From Prevotella sp. (GTDB lineage Bacteria; Bacteroidota; Bacteroidia; Bacteroidales; Bacteroidaceae), in contig JAGCZA010000125.1 of assembly GCA_017960525.1 (NCBI GenBank), forward strand, positions 1 through 52,931: a stretch of DNA of 52,931 nucleotides. The letters are read 5' to 3'. Both the position numbers and the translations under genes were made by a program. Numbering within the stretch: the stretch's first letter is position 1; each line of letters begins with the position of its first letter. The notes beneath the pieces were generated by a model that did not search any database, was not told the DNA's origin, and saw nothing but the letters and a program-made list of their open reading frames with translations. Of this stretch, positions 4,998-52,200 are shown piece by piece.

Positions 4998-5085
4998 GAG
5001 TTAGAAGGTATATAACTCAGAGTTAGAAGGCATGTAACTCAGAGTTAGAAGGTATGTAACTCAGAGTTAGAAGGTATATAACTCC
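4998..5085. repeat. Tandem array of four 22-bp palindromic units (motif A)
   Basis: Four adjoining 22-bp units begin at 4998, 5020, 5042 and 5064. Their consensus is GAGTTAGAAGGTATATAACT followed by CA. Each unit is an imperfect palindrome: GAGTTA, 9 nt, TAACTC. The units differ only at one or two central positions (TATATA, CATGTA or TATGTA) and at the last base. The array lies between the divergent isomerase gene and the DUF3990 cassette. The same core, TTAGAAGGTATATAACT, recurs three times at 46765-46827. Confidence 0.9.
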
Positions 5086-5087
5086 AA

Positions 5088-5109
5088 GTTTGGACGAACC
5101 AAATTTTCA
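5088..5109. repeat. Single copy of motif B (GTTTGGACGAACCAAA) with conserved 3' flank
   Basis: GTTTGGACGAACCAAA (5088-5103) is the reverse complement of the unit repeated four times at 27721-27808. It is followed by TTTTCA, as is the end of that distant array. It starts 2 bp after the motif A array, so two unrelated palindromic motifs meet here. Confidence 0.8.
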
Positions 5110-24310: not shown

Positions 24311-27106
24311 CTATTTGGAAGCTTGGGCGGCAGTATTGATGACGCAGAGAATGTCGTCCCAGTCGACGTTGCCGTCGCCATTGGCATCTGCCTGTTGAGA
24401 AGATACTGAGGGCGAGACAGAACCCATGAAGCCGATAATAGCCAAGATGTCGGACACATCAACGTTTCCATCACCATTGACATCGGCGGGCGACAGAGGT
24501 GTCACGTCAGCGGGTTCGTAGATTCGCAGGGCTTTGAGTGCTCCGGTCTTATAGTTTGGGAATGTGAGATTGACACCAACGGGATTGTGCACCCACTTGA
24601 TGTCGAAGCTGGTGAGCGAGGCGCTTTGGTAGAACACATACTCGGCAAAGGCGTATGCCGAACCCTCGTCGGTGGTCATAGTGTAACCGTAGTTATTGGC
24701 CAACCCAACACCTTTGGCGTATGAATAGCGTGCTGCCAGTTTGGAATTCTGCACTATCAGCCCGGGAATGGCATTATAAGCCGCCAGTTTGCCATATTCC
24801 TGCCCCGACGGCAGCGAAGCCCAGCCCCAGGCGAAAGCGCCTGTACCGCTGACGGCATTGGCATAGATATCGAAACTGGTGAGGTCGACATCCTTCTGCA
24901 AGGCGTAGCAAGGAGCCAAGCTGATGCCTTCGGTAGGTTCAGAGTCGGTGTAGCCGTCGGCCACCACCTTGAACTGATAGACCGACTGTCCCGGTGGATT
25001 GAAGGTATCGCCCTCCATCGCCGTCCACTCCGCATCGTTGGCACCCCTATAGCAAAAGACGACCTTCTCCGGCTGAACCTTCAGCCCGCTATAGCTGGCC
25101 TTCAAAGTGCAGCCCGCTGTCTTCAGTCCGTTGTCACCATCTTTGAAGAACACAGCTGCCGATGGCACAGGCAGCTGCTCCTGCCGCACATAGACCTGCA
25201 ATCCGTAGGAACTGCGAGCGGCATCAGGCAGAAGGAGATAAGCCTGGTTCTCCATTGGCTGCTCGGCCTCGGTCTTGGTGAAAAGTGTGTTGCCGTGACT
25301 CGTGGCCAGCGTGAAGCTGCCAGCAGGAGCGACACCTGCGCCGACAACGGCAGTAAGCAGATTGTCGGCAGGCAGTGGCTCCGTTTCGCCCTGCACGACA
25401 GGCACATCCACCGTACACTCCTCGCCGATGAGCACCACTCCCGTGCCGGCAGGCACCTGCTTCACCTGCTCAATGAGTACATTGGCATCGTCTACGCCGG
25501 AGACGATATAAGCCTTGAAGAGGGCCTCGAAGGGAGAGAAGTCGAGCGCACGGTCGGAGGCGAAAGTCTCCATACGGTCGGCTCCGATAAGGACATTGAC
25601 TGTTTCTGGGGTCTTCACCTCAATCTTCTTCAGGTAGGCCGCCCCCGATGTCTGGAAACCGATGTGTGTGGGTAGTGTGACGTCGTGCCTCACACGGAAG
25701 GTGACAGTCCCCCCGCTGGTTCCCACCACGTCGGTCCCCACTACGTCGGCCAGCCCTTCGGAGTCCATACAAGTCTTTACGCGAATGGTTTCCTTTGCAC
25801 TTGCCAAAGTGAAGGTGACCAGCTGCCCGGCCTTGAGCTTTGGAATGAAGACAGTTGGGTCGCCGGTGACGAACACGAGCCATTTTTTCGCCGTGTTGAT
25901 GGCGATGCGGTTGCCTTGGGGCGACGAGAAGAAGAGGCCTTCGGTCTCAGGGATGACGTAGTTGTTGAGCGCAAAAAGCTGTTCCTCGTTGATGCCGCTA
26001 CTGCGCCGATAGCCGTAGTTGTGGCTGTTCCACTTTGAACCGCTGGCCAAGGCCACGTCGGCGGCAAGCGAGTCGTTGGTGGCCTGCGACCAGACGGTGA
26101 AGTCCCATTGGCGGTTGTCGGGCGAAGGAACCACCACGTCGTCCATCGGGCTTTCTTCTACCGCAAATTCCTCCACGTCGACCTGTGGGCCGCTGATGAG
26201 GCCGAGCTCCACGATGAGATTGTACATCTTCTTGCCCAGGTATTCCGTAGCCTGGCGGTCGAAGTGCAGATTGTCGGAGAGCAGCGTGGCGTTCTTCATG
26301 TCGATGACATAGCAGTTGGGGTCTTCGGCAGCCACCTGTTTCTGGGCGGCCTCCACCTCAGCGTTGTACTGGGTGGAGCGACGGCAAACCGTTCCGAAGA
26401 TGAACGGCAGCGTCAGGTCGGCCTCGTCGCCCGTCTTCTGGTAGATGGCATTGCGCATGAAGGCAATCATCGTCTTGAAGTTGGTATAGTATGCGCCGGA
26501 GGCATTGCGGTCGCTCTCGCCTTGGTGCCAGAGTATGGCCTTCACGTCGTAGCCTTCGTCCAATGCTGCCAGTGTACCGTCGACGAGCGAGGCAAAGCCC
26601 TCGGTAAGGTTCTTGGTGAGCGAATTGTAGTTGGCATACTCGGCCTTGGTGATGTCGTCGCCTTTATAGGCATAATGGGTCTGCATCCAGTCGGCATCGG
26701 CATACCAGACGGGCAGTTTGGCTGCCGTCACGCCGGGAGCGATGGCCGTGCCGCCGTAGGCACACTTGATGGCATAGAAGTTCTGCTTTACTGCCTGGTC
26801 TATCCAGTAGTTTGTCACATCACAGAAGGCGTAACGCTCGCCAAGTGCCATACTTCGCGTGCCGAAGACCTTCTGCGAGGGATTGCCGCAGATGCTGGCC
26901 CAGCGCAAGTAGGTGTAGGGACTGTAGGGCGAACTGCCCACCTTCATATAGTCTGGCAGATTGCTGACGTACTCGCGTCCGTCGGCATTCGATTGTCCTG
27001 CATAGAGGAACACAGGAGCCTTGGCCTGCGCTTTGGCATCAACAAAGAAACACCCCAGGAAGATGCCCAAAGTCAGGATTTTCAGGAGGAATCTGGACAA
27101 AATCAC
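24311..27106 (-). CDS. Exported sialate O-acetylesterase-like protein with dockerin-like tail (931 aa)
   Basis: A signal peptide (about 1-26) precedes an SGNH-fold SASA/DUF303 domain: [12 protein letters not shown] (nucleophile Ser near residue 39), [11 protein letters not shown] (oxyanion/Asn region) and the catalytic Asp/His pair in [17 protein letters not shown]. Next come beta-rich domains of unknown role (about 310-850). The protein ends with two DxNGDG calcium-loop repeats, [20 protein letters not shown] and [18 protein letters not shown], like a type I dockerin. It would remove acetyl groups from sialic acid or plant polysaccharides outside the cell. The start is a GTG at 27106 that overlaps the stop of def (GTGA), so translation of this exported enzyme seems coupled to peptide deformylase. 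Confidence 0.82.
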
Positions 27107-27713: not shown

Positions 27714-27808
27714 TGAAAATTTTGGTTCGTCCAAACTCCAGGTTTGGTTCGTCCAAAGTGGCAGTTTGGTTCGTCCAAACTACGGGTTTGGTTCGTCCGG
27801 ATTTTCAC
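27714..27808. repeat. Tandem array of four 22-bp palindromic units (motif B) bounded by inverted 7-mers
   Basis: Units start at 27721, 27743, 27765 and 27787, exactly 22 bp apart. Each begins TTTGGTTCGTCC; the first three continue AAA followed by a variable 7 nt. With the preceding G the core GTTTGG-TTCGT-CCAAAC is a palindrome. The array is framed by TGAAAAT (27714-27720) and its inverse ATTTTCA (27801-27807). A single copy with the same TTTTCA flank is at 5088-5109. The array lies between ruvX and def, in a transcribed spacer if they form one operon. Confidence 0.9.
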
Positions 27809-33775: not shown

Positions 33776-35206
33776 CTAACGTTCATACTTCAATTGCTTG
33801 CTCCAGATCTCATGGAAGGAATGGCTGGGGAACCGCATCATCTTGTGCCCAAACGCCCAGGGGTTCATTGAGTTGTTCTTCAGCGCATCGGGCAGCCAGT
33901 TCACGGCGGGCGACATCCACATAGCGGCCTTGTAGGCGGCGGGCATACCGAAGAGGAAGCCCATACCAGATGACATTGCCTTCTTCATCTTGTCGGCCTT
34001 GCCGAAGGCATCGAGTTGCTGGCGCCAGCGGTACACTTGTGTAGAGAGGTCTACCTTCACGGGACAGACATTGTCGCACGAACAGCAAAGCGAGCAGGCC
34101 GACACGTTATCGCTGTAGACCAGCGGGTCGCGCAGCATACCCAGGTTGATGCCAATGGGGCCGGGGATGAAGTAGGTATAACTGTAACCAGCCGACCGGC
34201 GGTAAACGGGACACGTGTTCATACAGGCACCGCAACGCATACACTTCAGCGTCTGCCAATGTTCCTGGTTGGAGAGGATACTGCTGCGCCCGTTGTCCAC
34301 AAGGATGATGTGCATCTCCCCGCCTGGGCGGGGGCCTCGGAAGTGGCTGGTGTAGACGGTGGTCTCCTGCCCTGTGCCGCAACGGGCCAAGAGGCGCTGG
34401 AACACGCCCATTGCCTTGTAGTTGGGGATGAGTTTCTCAATGCCCATCGACACGATGTGGAGTTTGGGAATAGAGGTCGACATATCAGCGTTGCCCTCGT
34501 TGGTGCACACCACCACATCGCCCGTCTCGGCAATGCCGAAGTTGGCGCCAGTCATACCACAGTCGGCTTCCATAAACTGCTGGCGCAGGTGCATGCGGGC
34601 CACGTAGGTGAGGAACGTGGGGTCGTTGGGGTCGGGCTGTGCAGATTGCGCAGCATACGAGACGGGGGGAGTGTAGGTGGCGGCGATTTCGTCGAAGTTG
34701 GGGATGAGTTTGCGGAAAGTGTTGCCGATGTCCTCGCGATGCACGTGGAGGGCAGGCATAACGATATGACTTGGCGCCAACTTCATCATTTGCAGGATGC
34801 GCTCGCCCAGGTCGGTCTCCACCACGTTGATGCCTTTCTGCTCCAGATGCTTGTTCAGGTGGCACTCCTCGGTGAGCATACTCTTGCTCTTCACGACCTT
34901 CTTCACGCCGTGCTGCTGCAGGATATCGTAGACAATCTGATTGTACTCTGCGGCATCCTTCGCCCAATGGACTTGGACGCCGTTGTTGGTGGCCGCCTGC
35001 TCGAACTGCTCCAGGTAGTCGGCCAGATGGGTCACCGTGTGTTTCTTTATCTGACTGGCGGCCTCGCGCAAGTCTTCCCACTCAGGCAGTGCCTTCGCCA
35101 TACGGTCACGTTTCTCGCGCACGCCAAAAAACGTTTTGTCGTGGCGTTCCACCACCTCCGGCCTCAGTTGATAAACCTCCGCCGCTTTAGCATGTAATGT
35201 ACTCAT
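33776..35206 (-). CDS. lutB: LutB, iron-sulfur subunit of the lactate oxidation complex (476 aa)
   Basis: An N-terminal LUD domain (about 60-290; VKSKSMLTEECHLNKHLEQ, GMTGANFGIAETGDVVVCTN) precedes two [4Fe-4S] binding motifs: CMRCGACMNTCPVYR and CSLCCSCDNVCPVKVD. A C-terminal helical domain (DUF3390-like, with FGKADKMKKAMSSGMGFLFG) ends the protein. It passes electrons from lactate inside the LutABC complex. The start ATG at 35206 has AAAGAAAG before it and lies only 9 bp from the inverted repeat of the DUF559 insertion. Confidence 0.93.
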   Translation of the reverse strand: MSTLHAKAAEVYQLRPEVVERHDKTFFGVREKRDRMAKALPEWEDLREAASQIKKHTVTHLADYLEQFEQAATNNGVQVHWAKDAAEYNQIVYDILQQHGVKKVVKSKSMLTEECHLNKHLEQKGINVVETDLGERILQMMKLAPSHIVMPALHVHREDIGNTFRKLIPNFDEIAATYTPPVSYAAQSAQPDPNDPTFLTYVARMHLRQQFMEADCGMTGANFGIAETGDVVVCTNEGNADMSTSIPKLHIVSMGIEKLIPNYKAMGVFQRLLARCGTGQETTVYTSHFRGPRPGGEMHIILVDNGRSSILSNQEHWQTLKCMRCGACMNTCPVYRRSAGYSYTYFIPGPIGINLGMLRDPLVYSDNVSACSLCCSCDNVCPVKVDLSTQVYRWRQQLDAFGKADKMKKAMSSGMGFLFGMPAAYKAAMWMSPAVNWLPDALKNNSMNPWAFGHKMMRFPSHSFHEIWSKQLKYER

Positions 35207-35215
35207 CTTTCTTTT

Positions 35216-35250
35216 TTAGCCCCCTAAGTTAGGGGGTTGGGGGTCTGAAC
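35216..35250. repeat. Left 35-bp inverted repeat of the DUF559 unit
   Basis: It includes the last seven codons and stop (TAG) of the DUF559 gene, read on the minus strand as TPNPLT-stop. It contains CCCCCTAAGTTAGGGGG. Confidence 0.9.
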
Positions 35251-35616
35251 GACCTCAGTTAATAATGTTATATACTCCCTAATTCTTTCTATCACACCTT
35301 CTAAATTACCCTCGACCTCGTCGTTCTTGAATCTCATAACACTTATTCTGTTCTGATTTAGAAACATTGTTCTTTCTTCATCCTTTTGACGGGCTTCCAA
35401 AGAATCGTGAACGGAACCGTCTAATTCAATGCACAAGCGTAATGAAGGGCAATAGAAGTCAAGGACATAGGGGCCAAACCCGTGTTGTTGCCGGAATCTA
35501 TAACCATCTAATTGCTTACCTCTGAGATGTTTCCAAAGCATTCGTTCTGTCGGCGTTTCAGAACGTCGAAGCAGTTGTCTGAATTCTTTAGTTACTGGAT
35601 GGTTAGAATAGTTCAT
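35224..35616 (-). CDS. DUF559 (Vsr-fold) endonuclease-like protein (130 aa)
   Basis: The protein shows the complete DUF559 pattern: TPTERMLWKHLRGKQLDGYRF, then RQQHGFGPYVLDFYCPSLRL with the catalytic aspartate, CIELDGSVHDSLEARQKDEER with the ExD pair, and ISVMRFKNDEVEGNLEGVIERI at the end. The fold is PD-(D/E)xK like the Vsr mismatch endonuclease; nicking or cutting DNA is inferred. Its C-terminus, QTPNPLT, is encoded by the flanking inverted repeat. It is codirectional with the lut genes and inserted in their operon. Homologues with similar Pro-rich ends occur in other bacteria as I remember, but this is unverified. It may be the activity that moves or keeps the unit. Confidence 0.88.
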   Translation of the reverse strand: MNYSNHPVTKEFRQLLRRSETPTERMLWKHLRGKQLDGYRFRQQHGFGPYVLDFYCPSLRLCIELDGSVHDSLEARQKDEERTMFLNQNRISVMRFKNDEVEGNLEGVIERIREYITLLTEVVQTPNPLT

Positions 35617-35632
35617 TATACAACTTTGGTTT

Positions 35633-35667
35633 GTTCAGACCCCCAACCCCCTAACTTAGGGGGCTAA
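35633..35667. repeat. Right 35-bp inverted repeat of the DUF559 unit
   Basis: Exact reverse complement of 35216-35250. It encodes the last residues of LutA (LAP) and its TAA stop. Confidence 0.9.
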
Positions 35668-36384
35668 GATTTGTGCAATATGGATGAAGCGGATGGGCAA
35701 GTGCTCCTTCTCGGCGATGCCCTGCATGTGCATGAGGCAGGAGGAATCGGGGCCTGTGACGTACTCGGCGCCGGTGGCGATGTGGCGTTTCACCTTGTCG
35801 ATGCCCATACAGCGGCTGACGGCCTGCTCCTCGACGGCGAACATACCGCCGAAGCCGCAACACTCGTCGGGACGCTCAGGCTCGACCACTTCGATGCCTT
35901 CGACCAGGTTCAGAAGGTCTATCACCTTATTATATTTAGGGATGTTGCGCTCCGAAGGCGACGACAGGCCCAGTTCGCGCACGCCGTGGCACGAGTTGTG
36001 TACGCTCACCTTGTGGGGGAAGCGGGCGGGCAGCGACGTCACTTTGACGACATCGTGCAGGAACTCCACGAGGTCCATCGTCTTTCCGGCGGCCTCGCAC
36101 TGGTGACCCTTCAGCATATTCGGGTGGAAGCAGCGCACGTATGCGGCGCAACTGGCCGACGGGGCGACCACATAGTCGTAATTGCGGAAGAGCAGGTCGA
36201 ACTTATGTGCCAGCGGGATGGCCTTCACCTCGAAGCCGGCGTTGCCCATAGGCTGGCCGCAGCAGGTCTGCTCCTCGGGGTAGTAGACATCGAGGCCGAG
36301 GCTCTTCAGCAGTTTAAATGTCGACACGCCCACCTCAGGGTAGAGCGCGTCGACATAACAGGGGATGAATAGTCCGATTTTCAT
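35656..36384 (-). CDS. lutA: LutA, cysteine-rich CCG-domain subunit of the lactate oxidation complex (242 aa)
   Basis: I start at ATG 36384 (MKIGLFIPCYVDALYPEVG), 1 bp after the aldA stop; the longer frame runs into aldA. Two CCG domains are visible: EEQTCCGQPMGN, with APSASCAAYVR, and NSCHGVREL with DECCGFGGMFAVEE and GPDSSCLMHMQG. These cysteines bind iron-sulfur clusters. It acts with LutB and LutC. The final codons (ILAP, stop) come from the inverted repeat of the DUF559 unit, so the original C-terminus was probably replaced by a few residues. Confidence 0.92.
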   Translation of the reverse strand: MKIGLFIPCYVDALYPEVGVSTFKLLKSLGLDVYYPEEQTCCGQPMGNAGFEVKAIPLAHKFDLLFRNYDYVVAPSASCAAYVRCFHPNMLKGHQCEAAGKTMDLVEFLHDVVKVTSLPARFPHKVSVHNSCHGVRELGLSSPSERNIPKYNKVIDLLNLVEGIEVVEPERPDECCGFGGMFAVEEQAVSRCMGIDKVKRHIATGAEYVTGPDSSCLMHMQGIAEKEHLPIRFIHIAQILAP

Positions 36385-37964: not shown

Positions 37965-38052
37965 GTTAAATCAATGACAATGATTTAACGTTCAATGTCA
38001 TTGATTTAATGTTCAATGTCGCTGTTTTAACGTTCAATGCCATTGATTTAAC
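37965..38052. repeat. Tandem array of 21-bp units (motif C) between divergent promoters
   Basis: Three 21-bp units start at 37981, 38002 and 38023, with a fourth partial one at 38044. The consensus is TGATTTAACGTTCAATGTCA followed by T. Each junction makes the palindrome TCAATG-N-CATTGA. An inverted copy, GTTAAATCA (37965-37973), faces the first TGATTTAAC (37981-37989). It lies between the promoters of aldA (minus) and the double esterase gene (plus). The remaining stretch 37823-38182 is leader and promoter sequence with no gene. Confidence 0.9.
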
Positions 38053-42151: not shown

Positions 42152-44467
42152 ATGAAAAAGATTCTACTGACCTTACCAATCGTCATTTTCCACTTCTCGT
42201 TTGCCCAGGCCCAGCTGCCAGTAGCGGTTGCCAAAGACCGGGCCCTCTGGGGTTCCATCGCTGCCGACCCATCCAGCGGGGCCATTTCGTTGGGTGACTA
42301 TAAGAGTGCCAACAACAAGATTCTGCTCTCGTGGCGTATGCTGCCCGGCGACACCGACAGCACGGCCTTTAACCTGTGGCGAAGCACCAACGGAGGAGAC
42401 ACGTGGTCGTGCGTGAACGACCCGTTCAAGACAGGCTCAAAAGGTATTCAGGCCACCAACTTCGCCCTTGCCCCCGGCTCGGCCAAGAAAGACCAGATGT
42501 TCCGTCTGACCTACGCCGACGGGACGAAAAGCGGAAGCGAGATGACCAGCAACGACTTCATCGGTGAATTCACTATGTCTTACGAGAACCAAATCAAGAA
42601 CAAACTGCCCTACGTGGAGATTCCTCTTCAAGACACGCAGGACTGTTCCAACTATCCCGACGAGTTCAAATATCAGGCCAACGACTGCTCGGTGGGCGAC
42701 CTGGACGGCGACGGACAGATGGAAATAGTGGTGAAGCGCCTGCTCACCTACTATAACAGCGCTGGAGAAGTGACTGGCACCAGCGAGGGTGCCGGCGACA
42801 GCGACATGCGCGCCCGCCACATCGCCATCTTCGAAGCCTACAAGTTGGACGGCACTTTCCTCTGGCGCGTCAAGTCGGGGCCGAACATCATCGCCGGCAA
42901 CTCGATTAACTTCGCCGTGGCCGACCTCGACGGCGACGGCTGCTGCGAGGTGGTGACCAAGACTGGCGAGGGCACCGTCTTCGGCGACGGCTACGAGATT
43001 CCCGACACCGACGGCGACGGCAAGGTGGACTACCGCGACATCTGGCCCGCAGGCCACTATACCGGCGACGGCCCCAAGGGCTACGGCGGCCCAGAGTTCT
43101 TTTCGGTCATCGACGGCAAGACGGGCCGCGAACTGGCACGCGCCAACTTCATCTGCCGAGGCAAGGAAGGCGAAACGCCTGCCGAACTGGCCAAGAATTG
43201 GGAACAGAACGACTGGAAATGGGACCCCCGCAAAAATAAATACCAATGGAAACTGGCCAACTCACTGCGTCTGGGCGTGGCCAAGTTCCAGCAGGGCAAA
43301 GGCTTGCAGATATTCCTGGGCCGAGGCGTCTATGGGCGCACGGTTGTGGAAGGGTGGCAGTATAATGGGCCGGACCAGGAGATGACCCGCCTGTGGAAAA
43401 TTGACACCGACGACAGCGGCGGCAAGGATGTGAACAAGGACGGCAAGCCATTCTCGGCATACGCCGGGCAGGGCAATCACGCTTTCAATGTGGCCGACCT
43501 CGACGGCGACGGCCTGGACGAGGTGATGTACGGCTCGTGCGCCTGGGACAACGACGGCACCGGCCTCTGGACGACTGGCTTAGGCCACGGCGACGCCAGC
43601 CACGTGGGCGTGTTCCAAAAGGGCTACGAGGGTCTGCAGGTGTACCATTGCTTAGAGAGCGGAAAGACCGAAGTGGCCCTGCACGACGGCAAGACGGGCA
43701 GCACCATCTGGGCCGTCGTGGCTGCCTCGGAAAACGACCAAGGACGTTGTATGGTGGCCGATGTAGACCCCACATCGCCAGGCTGCGAGTTCTGGAAATA
43801 CGGCAACGAACTGTACACCCAGGACGGCAAGGCACTGAATGACAGCGAAGGCAACCGCAAGAAGGAGAGTTCGGCCAATGCCGGCATCTGGTTCGACGGC
43901 TACCTGAACCGCCAAATGATCAATGAGGGCATCATCAACAGTTTCAGCCACGGACGCACGTTTACTATGTACCGCTACGACATTTCGTTCAACAACTCTA
44001 CGAAGTCGAACCCGGGCTGGTATGGCGACTTGCTCGGTGACTGGCGCGAGGAGGTCATCGTGCCCGATGCTACAAAACTGAAAAACCTGAAAATATTCTC
44101 CACCTGGTACCCCACGGAGCACCGCATCCCCTGGCTTATGCTCGACCACACCTACTATATGCAGTGCATACACGAGCAAGTGGGCTACAACCAGCCTACC
44201 AACGTGGGCTTCTATATGGGCAGCGAACTGACCGATACCGAGATTTGGGACGCTTTCGCAAAGGCCAATACCACCAATGAAGTGGTAGTGAAGGTGGGCG
44301 ACGTGAACGGCGACAAAGTCGTCGATGTGGCCGACATTGCTGCCATTATCTCAGTAATGGCCAACCCCGCACTGGCAGAGACATACCAACACCCCGACGT
44401 GAACGGCGACGGCATCACAGACGTGGCCGACATCGCCAAAGTGCTTACCATTATGTCGGGCTATTGA
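42152..44467 (+). CDS. PL11 rhamnogalacturonan lyase with dockerin-like tail (771 aa)
   Basis: I start at ATG 42152 (MKKILLTLPIVIFHFSFAQA), a clean signal peptide, rather than the upstream TTG. After an FN3-like segment the PL11 propeller runs from about residue 140 to 700: VGDLDGDGQMEIVVK, VADLDGDGCCEVVTK, DTDGDGKVDYRD, HAFNVADLDGDGLDEVMYG, TTGLGHGDASHVGVF and YGDLLGDWREEVIVPD. The D-x-D-G-D-G loops bind calcium. The end holds two dockerin-like repeats, DVNGDKVVDVADIAAII and DVNGDGITDVADIAKVL. Unlike the 1549-aa PL11 at 9990-14639, it has no repeat stalk and no DLQGR tail. It cleaves rhamnogalacturonan I backbones outside the cell. Confidence 0.9.
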   Translation: MKKILLTLPIVIFHFSFAQAQLPVAVAKDRALWGSIAADPSSGAISLGDYKSANNKILLSWRMLPGDTDSTAFNLWRSTNGGDTWSCVNDPFKTGSKGIQATNFALAPGSAKKDQMFRLTYADGTKSGSEMTSNDFIGEFTMSYENQIKNKLPYVEIPLQDTQDCSNYPDEFKYQANDCSVGDLDGDGQMEIVVKRLLTYYNSAGEVTGTSEGAGDSDMRARHIAIFEAYKLDGTFLWRVKSGPNIIAGNSINFAVADLDGDGCCEVVTKTGEGTVFGDGYEIPDTDGDGKVDYRDIWPAGHYTGDGPKGYGGPEFFSVIDGKTGRELARANFICRGKEGETPAELAKNWEQNDWKWDPRKNKYQWKLANSLRLGVAKFQQGKGLQIFLGRGVYGRTVVEGWQYNGPDQEMTRLWKIDTDDSGGKDVNKDGKPFSAYAGQGNHAFNVADLDGDGLDEVMYGSCAWDNDGTGLWTTGLGHGDASHVGVFQKGYEGLQVYHCLESGKTEVALHDGKTGSTIWAVVAASENDQGRCMVADVDPTSPGCEFWKYGNELYTQDGKALNDSEGNRKKESSANAGIWFDGYLNRQMINEGIINSFSHGRTFTMYRYDISFNNSTKSNPGWYGDLLGDWREEVIVPDATKLKNLKIFSTWYPTEHRIPWLMLDHTYYMQCIHEQVGYNQPTNVGFYMGSELTDTEIWDAFAKANTTNEVVVKVGDVNGDKVVDVADIAAIISVMANPALAETYQHPDVNGDGITDVADIAKVLTIMSGY

Positions 44468-46760: not shown

Positions 46761-46835
46761 AGATAGTTATATACCTTCTAAGTGGGAGTTATATACCTTC
46801 TAACTCCCACTTAGAAGGTATATAACTTTTATCTG
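46761..46835. terminator. Bidirectional terminator-like hairpin built from motif A copies
   Basis: Two direct 22-bp motif A copies (46765-46786 and 46787-46808) and one inverted copy (46809-46827) form a perfect 26-bp stem: 46765-46790 with 46802-46827, loop 11 nt. An outer CAGAT/ATCTG pair lies at its ends. It lies between the convergent acyl-CoA synthetase and CotH genes and overlaps the first bases of the CotH stop region. Plus-strand tail TTTTATCTG follows. The core TTAGAAGGTATATAACT is the same as the array at 4998-5085. Confidence 0.8.
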
Positions 46836-49225
46836 GAAGCGGCGGCCATTGCCGAAATGACGGTTGCAATGTCGGCCACGTCCACTTGACCGTCGCCATT
46901 GGTGTCGGCCACATCGGTAGCAATATCCGACATTCCTGACATATAGGAAATGATAGACGAAATGTCGGCTACGTCCACGTGTCCATCGCCGTTCACGTCG
47001 CAGGCAATTGTGGCGGCATCGACCTTCGGCACGAGCCAGGCCGCGTTCACGCAGGCATTGCTGCCCCAGTTCACCTTCAACACGTGCAGATGGACAAAGT
47101 CATCGACCCGCGTCACACCCTCGTTGGTGGTCACGGTCTTCAAGTCTTCCAGCGGTAAAACGATGGCTCCGAGGTCGCTATCCCAGTAGTTGTTCCCCTC
47201 ATTGAACGAGACGACAATCTGCTTGTACGGCCCGTGGTCTGTCAGGCGGTTGGCCAGCACGCGCAGGCCGCTGCCGCTGCCACGCAACACAAGGCTCTCA
47301 TAACGTGAGAGGTCGGCATACTTGTTCCACTCCACATTGCCGAAGCCAGCAATCGCCGTACCTCCACCGGCATTGACGCCCATATTCCAGTCTACATTGA
47401 CTTTCTTGTCAAGCGGCTGCGAGTCAATGGCATTGCCATCCCACTCGTGGAACATCTGTGACATCAGGCGTTCCCAGCCTTCGGGCGCCTCGAAGTCGTC
47501 GACATTCACGAAGGCTGTAATCTGGTTAAGCACATTGTCGCTGCGATAGGGGAAATACTGCGTCAGCAGCCGCTGGCGCTCGGCCTCGTAATGGTTGTCC
47601 ACGGTGTAGAGTTGGCCTGCCGACTGCCACTTGTGCACATCGCGGCGATAGTCGCCCCAGCGGGCGGCCTCGGCGTAGAGGGCCTTGGCGATGACGGCGT
47701 GCAGGCTGTCCCACACCTCCACCACACTGGCCTGGCCCAACGGCCCGTTTTCAGCAAAGACAACCTTTGCGCGGCGCAGATAGCGGCGGGCGAAATTGTC
47801 GTTGCGGAGCAGATTGTGGAAGATGCCTGTGGGGAACGACGAGCCGTTGTTCTTGTTCAGCACGTTCTCCCGCACATTCTCCTGTATAATCTCCGAGTCC
47901 CAGCAAAGGAAGCGGAAGCCCTGGCTGTCGGCTCCACGGCGGCGCAGGGCGTACCAGTTGTGGTGGTCCCAGTCGGTATTGCCGCCATACTGGTTGATGA
48001 GCATATAGTCGATGAAGTTGTCGATGTCGAGCAACGAGTCCTGCAACTGCTGGTAGGCTTCGTCCGGGGTGATGCTGCTTTGGGAACCGCCGACGATGGC
48101 AGCCAAACTGGTCATCATCCTCCAGGCGTCGAGTGTGCCTTCAGCGGCCTCGATGTGATTGCCTCCGTCCTCCTCAATCTTGACGACATCGATATCGTCC
48201 TTCTTGCCACCCAAATAGTCTTTGCCAAACTGGTCGTCCACGCGCTCGGCCAAATTGTAAAGGCCCCAATACATACCATTGATGAAAAGGTTCACGTAAA
48301 GGGCGTTCACGCTGGTGCGGCCCATACGGCGCTGCATACGGCGTGCCCAAACGTCGCGGCTGTACTGGGCTTTCTTGCGGTTGCCCTCGTCCCAATGCTG
48401 CCAGGAGTTGCCGAAATGGCAGCGCAGCACCAACTGGTCGAACTTCTGCGGCTCATCTTCGCCGAAGAGCGGGTACTTGAGCGACTTGGGGCCATACTGC
48501 TCTTTGAACACGAGGCGGAAGGAGTGCTTGGGGTTCTTCTCGGCCAGTCGCCCGTGACCACCGTGCAAGCGCAGTCCGCAGGTAGTGGAGAAATCCAACT
48601 GGCCGGCCGGGCCGAACATCTCCACACTGGCAGGGCGTGTCCACCCGTGGCCTGTGCCATCGCCCACCGGCGGGCCAGTGAAAATGTAGATGCCGCCACG
48701 CACGGAGTCGTTCTCGTGGCTGAACAGATTGTCGCGGTCGGTGACAATGCTGACCACGGGGAGCGACTGCAAGCCCTCAACAATCTTGGGGCGCAGGATG
48801 GGGTCTTCAGTCATTTCGGGGTCCATCTCATAGTCGGCCTGCGCCGTACCGTTGATGGTGGTGTAGCGTCCCCACGTTGAGGGATAGCCCTCTGGCGTGT
48901 TGCTCTGACTGAGAATATCGTCGACAAAGAGGTAGGTGGCCGTCAACACAGGCGAGACACAGGTGCCGCCCTCGAAAACCGCAGCCCTAACGATGGTCGT
49001 AGAACTGACGTTGAGAGGGGCGGAATAGAGAGGACTCGCGGCTGTCGGCTCACTGGCGTCGAGGGTATAACGGATGTCCTGCCCGGCAGGCGACGTGATG
49101 GTCAGCAAGAAAGGTTCCTCGCAAAAGCCGTGCTGCTGGCTGAAAACAGGCTGCTGGGCCTGCATCCGCCACGGGGCGAGGATACAGGCCAGCAGGACTA
49201 TGATGAAAAAGAATCTGGTTCTCAT
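46829..49225 (-). CDS. Exported CotH-kinase-like protein with dockerin-like tail (798 aa)
   Basis: I start at ATG 49225 (MRTRFFFIIVLLACILAPWRMQA), a signal peptide 5 bp after the GH98 stop. A chitobiase/HEX C-terminal-like beta domain (about 25-95: ITSPAGQDIRYTLDASEPTA) comes first. A CotH-kinase fold follows (about 150-500): NPKHSFRLVFKEQYG, NALYVNLFINGMYWGLYNLAERVDD, NTDWDHHNWYALRRR and CWDSEIIQEN. A lectin-like segment (about 600-720) and two dockerin-like repeats (CDVNGDGHVDVADISSIIS, DTNGDGQVDVADIATVIS) end the protein. CotH proteins phosphorylate spore coat proteins in Bacillus; the role of exported Bacteroidales members is unknown. It is paired with the GH98 gene in one operon. Confidence 0.85.
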   Translation of the reverse strand: MRTRFFFIIVLLACILAPWRMQAQQPVFSQQHGFCEEPFLLTITSPAGQDIRYTLDASEPTAASPLYSAPLNVSSTTIVRAAVFEGGTCVSPVLTATYLFVDDILSQSNTPEGYPSTWGRYTTINGTAQADYEMDPEMTEDPILRPKIVEGLQSLPVVSIVTDRDNLFSHENDSVRGGIYIFTGPPVGDGTGHGWTRPASVEMFGPAGQLDFSTTCGLRLHGGHGRLAEKNPKHSFRLVFKEQYGPKSLKYPLFGEDEPQKFDQLVLRCHFGNSWQHWDEGNRKKAQYSRDVWARRMQRRMGRTSVNALYVNLFINGMYWGLYNLAERVDDQFGKDYLGGKKDDIDVVKIEEDGGNHIEAAEGTLDAWRMMTSLAAIVGGSQSSITPDEAYQQLQDSLLDIDNFIDYMLINQYGGNTDWDHHNWYALRRRGADSQGFRFLCWDSEIIQENVRENVLNKNNGSSFPTGIFHNLLRNDNFARRYLRRAKVVFAENGPLGQASVVEVWDSLHAVIAKALYAEAARWGDYRRDVHKWQSAGQLYTVDNHYEAERQRLLTQYFPYRSDNVLNQITAFVNVDDFEAPEGWERLMSQMFHEWDGNAIDSQPLDKKVNVDWNMGVNAGGGTAIAGFGNVEWNKYADLSRYESLVLRGSGSGLRVLANRLTDHGPYKQIVVSFNEGNNYWDSDLGAIVLPLEDLKTVTTNEGVTRVDDFVHLHVLKVNWGSNACVNAAWLVPKVDAATIACDVNGDGHVDVADISSIISYMSGMSDIATDVADTNGDGQVDVADIATVISAMAAASR

Positions 49226-49230
49226 TATTT

Positions 49231-52200
49231 TTACTGGGCAATACTCCGGGCTGCCGCTGCCATTGCGGAAATGACAGTTGCTATATCGGCCACATCCACC
49301 TGGCCGTCGCCATTGGTGTCGCAATCAGCGAGAGTGAGACTGGAACTTGCTGCCATAAAGGTAATGATGGATGCGATGTCAGCAACATCGACATTACCAT
49401 CGCCATTCACATCGCAAGGATTGGCCGGCTCAACTTTTCTAAGCGTGCACTCTAAAAGCAGATACTCGTCGAAACCGCCGCTGGGGTCGGTGAAACTGAT
49501 GACGTAGTTGCCTTCCTTGGAAACAGAGAACTCCAGTTTGCGCAGCGTGGCCGAGGCGACACTGGCCGAACTGTTGCCATTGACATTGGGCGAAGCTGTA
49601 AATGTGGTAGTGGTGGCAATGGCAGTACCCGCATTGTAGTCAAGGATGCTCAACTGGTACTTGGGCGTGCCCTTCCAGGCGGCCATAGCGTATGACAGGA
49701 TGTAGTCACCCTTCTCCAGCGTGAGCGGATAGGCAGACTGACGGCCAAACTCCGCCGAATTTTCACGCCAGTAAAGGCCCTTGCCCTGGTAGCCGCTGAA
49801 GCCCACCATAGTGCGTGCGCCCTGGCTGTAGATGTTGGGATATTCGTGCACCTCGTTGCCGCCCTGCACACAGCGCCAGCCGGTCGGGATGGCTCCGGCG
49901 ATGACGTTCTGGAAGTCGAGTTTGGCAATGACACCAGCCTCCTCATAGACGGGCTCCAGGGTCACATTGTCATCGGGCATAATAAAGGTCACCTTGCGGG
50001 CACCGTCCACCTTGATGGTTTTACCCATCGTGTAGTAGATGGAATTGACGAGGCGCAACTCCTTCAACTGGTAGCCATCTTCTGCAGCCACAGTAAAGAT
50101 GACGGTGTCGCCCTCGGCTGCCATATTGACGTTGGGTGTCACGGTGCCTTGCTCTGTCTGGCGTACGGTGATAAGGAACTTTTCTGCCTCCATATCGGCA
50201 GGCATATAGATAATCTGGTCGATGGTAAGGCCAGTACCGCCGGTGTTGGTAATAACCAAGTCGTTGGTGCCCTCATTCAGCGGGGCAGACACCTTCACCT
50301 TGCGCCAGTCGTTCTTGGCCACCTTCTCGCAGGCTACGGTGTTAGCCGTGCCATTGACGGTCACCTTGATGTTACCAGCCTTCGATGTGTTGCAGTAGCG
50401 GATGTAGATGTCGTAGTCGCCGCCCTGCTGCAGATTCAGTTGGTGGCGGAGGGCAGCCGTGGTGGTGGTGCCCATTTCCACATAGCCCATACCGGCAAAC
50501 TCGGAGTAGTCGGGGGCGCACCAGCCTGAATGGGTCAGAGCCACGTTCTTCACATTCTTGTAATCCATATTCTCTGCCTCGATGACGATAGGGCCGACAT
50601 AGGATTCAGGCTGCTGCGGGATGGGCAGGGCCTCAACGGGAAGAATGTCAGTCAGTCGGTCGGTGGCTGCACCAGCACACTCGATAATCACATCAGCGGG
50701 GCCATAGTGCTTCACATTCAGAGTAAAGGTCCCGGTTTCCTCATTATAGCTCTTTGTCATAGTGGCGCTGCCTATGCCGTGCTTCACAATCTTGGCTGTA
50801 GGCTGCGACGTAGCGCCTACGACAACGATGGTGTCGGTACGCTGGGCTGTGGAGTCGCTGCGGAAGTTGTTCAAGTAGAACTCTATGCGGTCGGCATACT
50901 CGCGGATATGCCCGCTCGACAACCTGGCGTAAGTCAGCTTCAGCGAGTCGCAGGTGTTATAGTGGAGAGGGATGGCAGCCTTGGCCGTCTTTTTCTCGTT
51001 CAGATAGGAGTAGGGAGTATAGGTGACGAGGTGGTTGCGGTAACGGTTCACAAAGAGGTCGCCCTTCGACACCTCGGGGTACCGCTTGTTGAACTCGTTG
51101 ACCTTAGTGGTTTGGGAAACGCTGGCGTAGGAAGACTTCTTCTTCTTCACGGGGATGCTGTTGGCAATGTCATCATAGTAGCCGATGACAAGGGGGATAG
51201 TGCCATAGCGGCCTGTCTTCTTGAAGTAGCACAGGTTGTCCATCCACTGGCCATTGCCACGGTTGAAGGGGTCGGTCTGCTTGTATAATCCATCGTAGAG
51301 GCTGCCCCAAACAGCATATTTGTTCTCGTCGCTGCCGCTGGTCACATCGTTCTGGATGGCAATCTTGATGTTGCCCACCACTTCCTCGCGGGTGGGGATG
51401 TAGAGGTGGCCGTTGATAATCTGGCGGAACATGTCCATCCAAACACCACGGAAGTTGGGGAAGGTGCCCCAGTTGCGGCGGGTATAGCCGTCGACAGTCG
51501 TGTTGTTCTGGTTCTGGAAGTCCTCGGTCCAAATGAGTTCCGGGCCGTCCCACACGGCACCACCGTTCACGCAGGTCTGCTCCATCACCGTGCCGATGCC
51601 GGCAGCACCAGGATATTTCTTGCCGTGGCCCTCGCCCAAAATGGCGTCGAGGGCACCGTTCCAGCCGCAGTTGTCATAACGCACACCGTAGTTCTTGGCC
51701 AGACCGCTGACAAAGGGTCCCCACGTCACGCTCTCGTTGGCATACCAACAACTGCTGGTGGTGTACTTATAAAGCCACACACAGGCTTCAGGATAGTCCT
51801 TGCAGGCCTGCAGGAGGTTCTTGTTGCGCTTCATCATGCCCATAGGATTCAAGCCATGACTCCAAATGTTGCCACAGAACGAGATGGTGAGGAAGCCGCC
51901 ATACTGGTGGTGCATAGGCACGAGCTTGGCAAACAGGGCGATACGCGAAGCCTGCGAGCTCGAGCTCTCATCGCCGGCCTCGTCGAAGCCCCAGAACTGC
52001 TCGGCGTAGTTCCATCCGAGGAAGTTTGGATATGCCTTGAAGAAATACTCAAAGGTCTCCAGGTCGTCGTCCTGGATATGGGTGTGGCCGCCACTGGCAG
52101 GCTGGCAAGTGAACCACATGTTGTTGGCCTGGCAGACCGATGCCCACGACTTGTAGGTACGCACGGCGCAACGCGGCATACGGTACATGTTCAAGTCCTT

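Follow-up and report, generated by a model that had tools for sequence, protein, structure and literature searches.

A DUF559 gene between inverted repeats in the lut operon

The window analysed here, meaning the whole stretch of 52,931 nucleotides from Prevotella sp., contains a 452-bp unit lodged between lutA and lutB. The unit, its parts and the adjacent host genes are as follows:

35216..35667, no strand: whole unit, made up of two inverted REP-like ends and a DUF559 gene; 452 bp; 16 of 17 other genomes have nothing inserted at this junction
35216..35250, + strand: left REP-like end, with the palindrome CCCCCTAAGTTAGGGGG at 35220-35236; its G-rich head faces inward and the DUF559 stop lies inside it
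35633..35667, - strand: right REP-like end, the exact reverse complement of the left end, with its palindrome at 35647-35663; the lutA stop lies inside it
35224..35616, - strand: DUF559 endonuclease gene, 130 aa, Pfam PF04480 (E 5.6e-32)
35656..36381, - strand: lutA, CCG domain, the host gene on the upstream side of the unit; the right repeat supplies its final codons and its stop
33776..35206, - strand: lutB, the host gene downstream of the unit, LUD and 4Fe-4S domains

The two arms (35216-35250 and 35633-35667) are 35 nt each, 100% complementary and separated by 382 nt, and each contains the palindrome CCCCCTAAGTTAGGGGG, with a G-rich stretch on its inner side. The perfect 35-bp inverted repeat that the original prediction had described around the DUF559 gene is therefore present, as are the stop codons it had placed there: the DUF559 frame ends at 35224, within the left repeat, and the lutA frame at 35656, within the right one. 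Pfam agrees with the gene names, assigning the CCG domain to lutA (in two stretches) and the LUD and 4Fe-4S domains to lutB. The accompanying view that insertion left the operon genes intact fails for lutA, whose C-terminus reads ILAP* as compared to ILAAGL* or similar in relatives; the last few residues were thus replaced, and the gene is not untouched. Neither an intron nor an intein appeared within the unit's 452 bp. When 521 positions of the window were scanned for inverted repeats (300-bp flanks around a 330-bp centre), a score of at least 15 was obtained only at the DUF559 unit, the median being 8.

The window also holds short arrays in which units of 21-22 bp (e.g. GAGTTAGAAGGTATATAACTC and TTTGGTTCGTCCAAAC), partly palindromic, are repeated in tandem, at 4998-5107, 27721-27798, 37971-38051 and 46765-46829; some of these units recur inverted and far apart. 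Repeats at 24339-24488, 44299-44436, 46857-47002 and 49271-49417 read as DVNGDGxxDVADI-type peptides, which we take to be dockerin-like.

The lutA-lutB junction is empty in relatives

LutA was matched in 27 of 40 related genomes searched, and 17 loci were compared besides the window's own. In 16 of the 17, namely L172-L186 from 15 genomes of the genus and L187 from a different family, lutB follows lutA immediately, with a stop-to-start distance of -4 to 36 nt, as had been expected of two normally neighbouring genes. The 17th junction (L188), whose genome belongs to a different family within the order, has a 126-nt spacer with other, different repeat-like palindromes. An ancestral position of the unit at this site is ruled out by these empty junctions: relatives do not always carry the gene here but lack it, and its mobility is not refuted on that account. 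LutA identity to the 16 empty-junction relatives is only 59-74%, which makes the insertion boundary approximate; compared with such diverged relatives, no target-site duplication was seen at lutA-lutB.

Gene-less copies of the repeat are dispersed through the source genome

The exact repeat core occurs in 33 copies in the source genome, compared to 0 for the reversed control. Among the loci read (L003-L062, which do not include all 33 cores) we found 14 distinct gene-less inverted pairs of 111-154 bp, resembling REPINs or MITEs; they and the unit are what was kept of a list of 17 pairs, from which one duplicate and one composite entry were dropped. Ten of 13 pair-bearing loci sit between codirectional ORFs (ORFs of at least 120 aa), and at nine of those ten the upstream frame ends inside the repeat or within about 13 nt of it. 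Folded as single-stranded DNA, one gene-less pair reached -44.3 kcal/mol (z -11.8); single arms folded unexceptionally (z -1.3 and -1.8).

Within a family otherwise made of gene-less REPIN-like pairs, the DUF559 unit is the member that carries a gene. The earlier idea of a self-contained selfish unit must be recast accordingly: it is an inserted, mobile unit, given the empty junctions and the repeats that flank DUF559 genes at several other sites, and its 35-bp ends are also present at other places that have no DUF559 gene, which likewise leaves mobility unrefuted; what does not stand is that it is only self-contained.

The window-type gene keeps its palindromes at other sites

A protein-only search of GTDB genomes yielded 18 relatives, 62-78% identical to the window's gene. 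The palindrome lies on both sides (at most one mismatch) in 17 of the 18; at L064 the left copy is truncated, with only its inner part remaining and the outer part missing. These relatives occupy several different neighbourhoods, some of them common to more than one species. In one orthologous pair (L065/L066) dN/dS was 0.078, and DUF559 is under purifying selection in that pair.

We then compared gene and repeat across 150 genomes of the genus, defining a window-type gene as one with at least 59% identity over at least 117 aa. Eight genomes have such a gene. At least five exact cores were present in seven of these eight versus 6 of the 142 others, a count that is preferable to that of any core (8/8 versus 20/142), into which the two copies that come with the gene itself bring some circularity; Fisher tests ignore shared ancestry. 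The six genomes with at least five cores and no window-type gene are G141 (48 cores), G144 (39), G056 (17), G116 (13), G120 (6) and G112 (5), and a laxer search of these six revealed no window-type remnant above 48% identity. G116 is a single contig at 99% completeness, compared with 62-81% for the remaining five. Within the window clade, the inward orientation of the repeat heads gave a weak signal (5 changes on the tree versus 12.9 in shuffles), since the labels of L104 and L126 were taken from trimmed arms and few columns underlie the tree.

Flanking palindromes accompany many DUF559 genes of the genus

A DUF559 match was found in 87 of the 150 genus genomes. We scored the flanks of 92 loci, comprising the source genome's two and 90 high-scoring matches rather than all matches. 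An inverted-repeat score of at least 15 in 300-bp flanks was reached at 68 of the 92 (median 22.5). The same threshold was reached in 0/62 same-locus controls, in 24/276 combinations of left and right flanks from different loci and in 0/19 lutA loci of relatives; together with the window scan, these controls rule out chance as the source of the flanking repeats. The 68 genes thus lie within inverted pairs of REP-like palindromes, and the window unit is one instance of an association that extends to much of the family in the genus and to some of it outside.

By eye, the genus repeats belong to different families that share one architecture, in which a C-rich head adjoins a G+C-rich palindrome; TGCCCCCGAGGGGGCT is an example REP of another DUF559 family. 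Across the 68 loci, protein identity correlated with repeat sharing (r 0.40, reached by 0 of 2000 permutations), and the correlation persisted below 60% identity (r 0.20, 1 of 2000), in a Mantel test that ignores shared ancestry. Judged from these sequence comparisons, repeat and protein diverge together in the genus, each DUF559 lineage having its own REP. A second repeat core was detected in 23 of the 150 genomes and is absent from the source genome. The highest number of cores of this second family, 38, was counted in G097, although the two DUF559 loci read there both lack it.

Some DUF559 units lie in frame within housekeeping proteins

At 9 of the 92 genus loci, the DUF559 domain is flanked on each side by 60 or more residues of the same frame. 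Elsewhere it precedes a longer frame, in frame with it (20/92), follows one (3/92) or stands alone (60/92); in-frame insertion into protein genes is a property of other DUF559 units and not of the window copy. Pfam identified a host in four of the five in-frame proteins scanned (MazG, an epimerase, a DegT aminotransferase and an ABC transporter) and in the fifth (L001) nothing beyond DUF559 and a related model, MTES_1575. Further in-frame hosts are presumably guanylate kinase, IspF and MetH.

The L001 protein (605-2371) is the source genome's second DUF559, in frame in a 588-aa ORF. That ORF also contains several more in-frame repeat peptides (PPLGGLGA, PPLKGG), from another palindrome family.

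A loop in the editing domain of leucyl-tRNA synthetase (LeuRS) is a recurrent site of inserts of varying length in many Prevotella-type genomes (L301-L370). LeuRS was matched in 126 of the 150 genomes, and the 69 that were read comprise 30 from the search and 39 added, partly for their long frames; L369, a duplicate locus of G144, was dropped. In these 69, the loop has at most 16 residues in 45, 17-25 in 11, 26-99 in 12 and a DUF559 unit in one (G089); several of the 26-99-residue inserts show REP-like palindromes by eye. Pfam places DUF559 between parts of LeuRS in G089 and finds none in G132, where the site is empty. Flanks of the two genomes are 93% identical on both sides, and against them the G089 unit represents a net gain of 483 nt, with about 15 nt of host sequence replaced and no target-site duplication.

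DUF559-palindrome pairs in the wider phylum and in other phyla

Across the wider phylum, 61 of 118 genomes had a DUF559 match. The score reached 15 in only 7 of the 29 loci returned by this search (controls 2/53), a weaker signal that is partly explained by divergence of the two arms. In three other phyla, 9 of 17 loci reached it (controls 1/34), the 17 having been chosen by hand among the 40 listed of 44 records; the nine that reached it are three from Deinococcus, two from Pseudanabaena and one each from Sphingobium, Sphingomonas, Novosphingobium and Sinorhizobium. E. coli ycjD fell below the score, with palindromes on its 3' side only. A 40-nt repeat from beside ycjD is present in 5376 of 5426 E. 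coli genomes, at a median of 19 places each.

Several individual loci deserve mention. Downstream of ycjD in E. coli K-12 (L269, 1500-2260), sequence similar to the 3' end of the gene is repeated, next to several palindromic repeats. On three Deinococcus plasmids (L264, L374 and L377) the DUF559 gene occupies different places among hpa catabolic genes, and on Sinorhizobium meliloti pSymB (L372) it lies between inverted copies of a repeat of more than 110 nt.

The DUF559 protein is related to homing endonucleases

A profile of 34 relatives, searched against the PDB, matched an endonuclease-like protein (3hrl, E 4.9e-31) and a mobile intron protein (3r3p, E 4e-5), the latter of which we take to be I-Bth0305I. 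The 3r3p match supports a sequence relationship to EDxHD homing endonucleases; matches to toxin B subunits (E 0.15 and worse) were taken as chance. Invariant residues include R17, E24, D53, E64, D66 and H70. NCBIfam returned the DUF559 model alone, below its cut-off, and PADLOC gave weak matches, one to a methyl-directed restriction enzyme (1.3e-6) and the other to DpdF (6.7e-6).

In the literature, a passage of PMC9403480 places DUF559 with EDxHD homing endonucleases, and part of PMC12907096 calls a Caulobacter DUF559 protein a Vsr-like nuclease. The portions consulted of the open-access literature, including PMC12306157 and PMC3943268, yielded no link between DUF559 and REP-like repeats; most subscription journals and preprints lay outside that scope.

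Discussion

We propose, with a probability of roughly 0.6, that DUF559 proteins, relatives of EDxHD homing endonucleases, are dedicated mobilisers of cognate REP-like repeats, analogous to the RAYT-REP partnership but built on an unrelated nuclease. Under this proposal the window unit would be the autonomous copy of a REPIN-like family, with the DUF559 endonuclease as its sole protein; its two flanking palindromes would serve both as the ends of the unit and as recognition sites, and the dispersed 111-154 bp inverted pairs would be non-autonomous satellites sharing those ends. The protein may recognise the REP as a hairpin, a cruciform or a duplex and cut or nick at the ends, leading to insertion or break-repair copying of the DNA between the inverted pair. 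New sites would often be codirectional gene junctions or tolerated in-frame positions, and insertion would cost a few host bases and leave no target-site duplication. The anatomy of the unit, the empty sites, the recurrent flanking, the joint divergence of repeat and protein, the purifying selection in L065/L066 and the in-frame insertions are observations; recognition, cleavage and mobilisation by the protein are what we infer here. Several results speak against the proposal: six genomes have at least five cores and no window-type gene, including the single-contig G116; the score was reached at only 7 of 29 loci in the wider phylum and was missed at 8 of 17 in other phyla, ycjD included; and the second repeat family peaks in G097 without accompanying either DUF559 locus read there.

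The closest parallel is REP/REPIN elements with their RAYT (TnpA-REP, REPtron). Like them, the DUF559 unit has one nuclease gene between inverted palindromic repeats and its family includes inverted pairs scattered without the gene; in both systems every gene lineage goes with a repeat of its own (for RAYTs, compare a passage of PMC6006769). The two differ in the flanked gene, which is a Y1/HUH tyrosine enzyme there and DUF559 here, in the several different sites at which the DUF559 unit sits, and in the arms examined, which are C- and G-rich and by eye lack a GTAG tag. Compared with EDxHD homing endonucleases such as I-Bth0305I, with which the sequence similarity to 3r3p is shared, DUF559 units have no intron or intein, end in REP-like palindromes, have gene-less satellites and occupy gene junctions or in-frame positions in proteins. 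MITEs likewise combine short gene-less copies, inverted ends and a longer gene-bearing relative; however, no DDE transposase was found with the DUF559 repeat ends, and the two empty sites examined (lutA-lutB and LeuRS) show no target-site duplication, unlike MITEs and DDE insertion sequences. Rickettsia palindromic elements and other palindromic units also lie in frame within unrelated proteins, according to parts of PMC10969869 and PMC3733652. Some DUF559-type inserts differ from the Rickettsia elements in carrying their own nuclease gene.

The main rival, which we consider unlikely, holds that the repeats are spread by something else and serve as landing pads: a homing-type DUF559 gene would enter existing inverted pairs, using their arms as homology. 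It would account for the mobile intron protein 3r3p being, besides 3hrl, the nearest characterised PDB relative by sequence, for the greater number of gene-less pairs than units in the source genome, for genomes with cores and no gene, and for a LeuRS loop occupied by repeats alone in some genomes and by a DUF559 unit in another. Against it, no repeat pair is left at lutA-lutB in the 16 relatives or at the LeuRS site of G132, many gene-less pairs persist, and no other mover of the repeats was found. A second rival has the repeats moved by a RAYT, a Y1/HUH transposase, with DUF559 as its cargo: RAYTs are described as the known movers of REPs in a section of PMC6006769 and Y1_Tnp matches occur in 10 of 14 core-bearing genomes. 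Yet none of 20 Y1 loci read has the palindrome (at most 3 mismatches) within about 1.5 kb on each side, and 4 of the 14 genomes, all four incomplete, have no Y1 match, among them G149 with its 35 copies. As far as these counts allow, we reject a RAYT as the mover and regard this explanation as very improbable.

It is also very improbable that the repeats are regulatory or terminator hairpins insulating a selfish or defensive nuclease gene and spreading by ordinary recombination between repeats. The palindromes can indeed fold into hairpins, the weak PADLOC matches (restriction enzyme, 1.3e-6; DpdF, 6.7e-6) hint at defence, and part of PMC12907096 describes a Caulobacter DUF559 protein that works as a nuclease of the Vsr-like kind. 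Such a role leaves in-frame insertion within host proteins unexplained, however, and sits poorly with repeats that are dispersed without the gene and with the lack of such flanks at other window positions and at lutA of relatives.

Mobilisation of cognate repeats by DUF559 remains our preferred reading. Its extension is more tentative, falling a little short of an even chance: DUF559 nucleases may make up a new mobilising class with no relation to known transposases. In several bacterial phyla they would spread their cognate REP-like palindromes, also those of families with no known mobiliser, and deliver them in frame into essential proteins. CGTC REPs, for instance, are said in a portion of PMC3733652 to lack a dedicated transposase. 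If the extension is true, the repeat beside E. coli ycjD would be the product of a DUF559-type mobilising nuclease. For at least some of the REP-like repeats that have no known mobiliser, the common DUF559 family could be the missing partner, and essential proteins would acquire in-frame insertions from DUF559 units.
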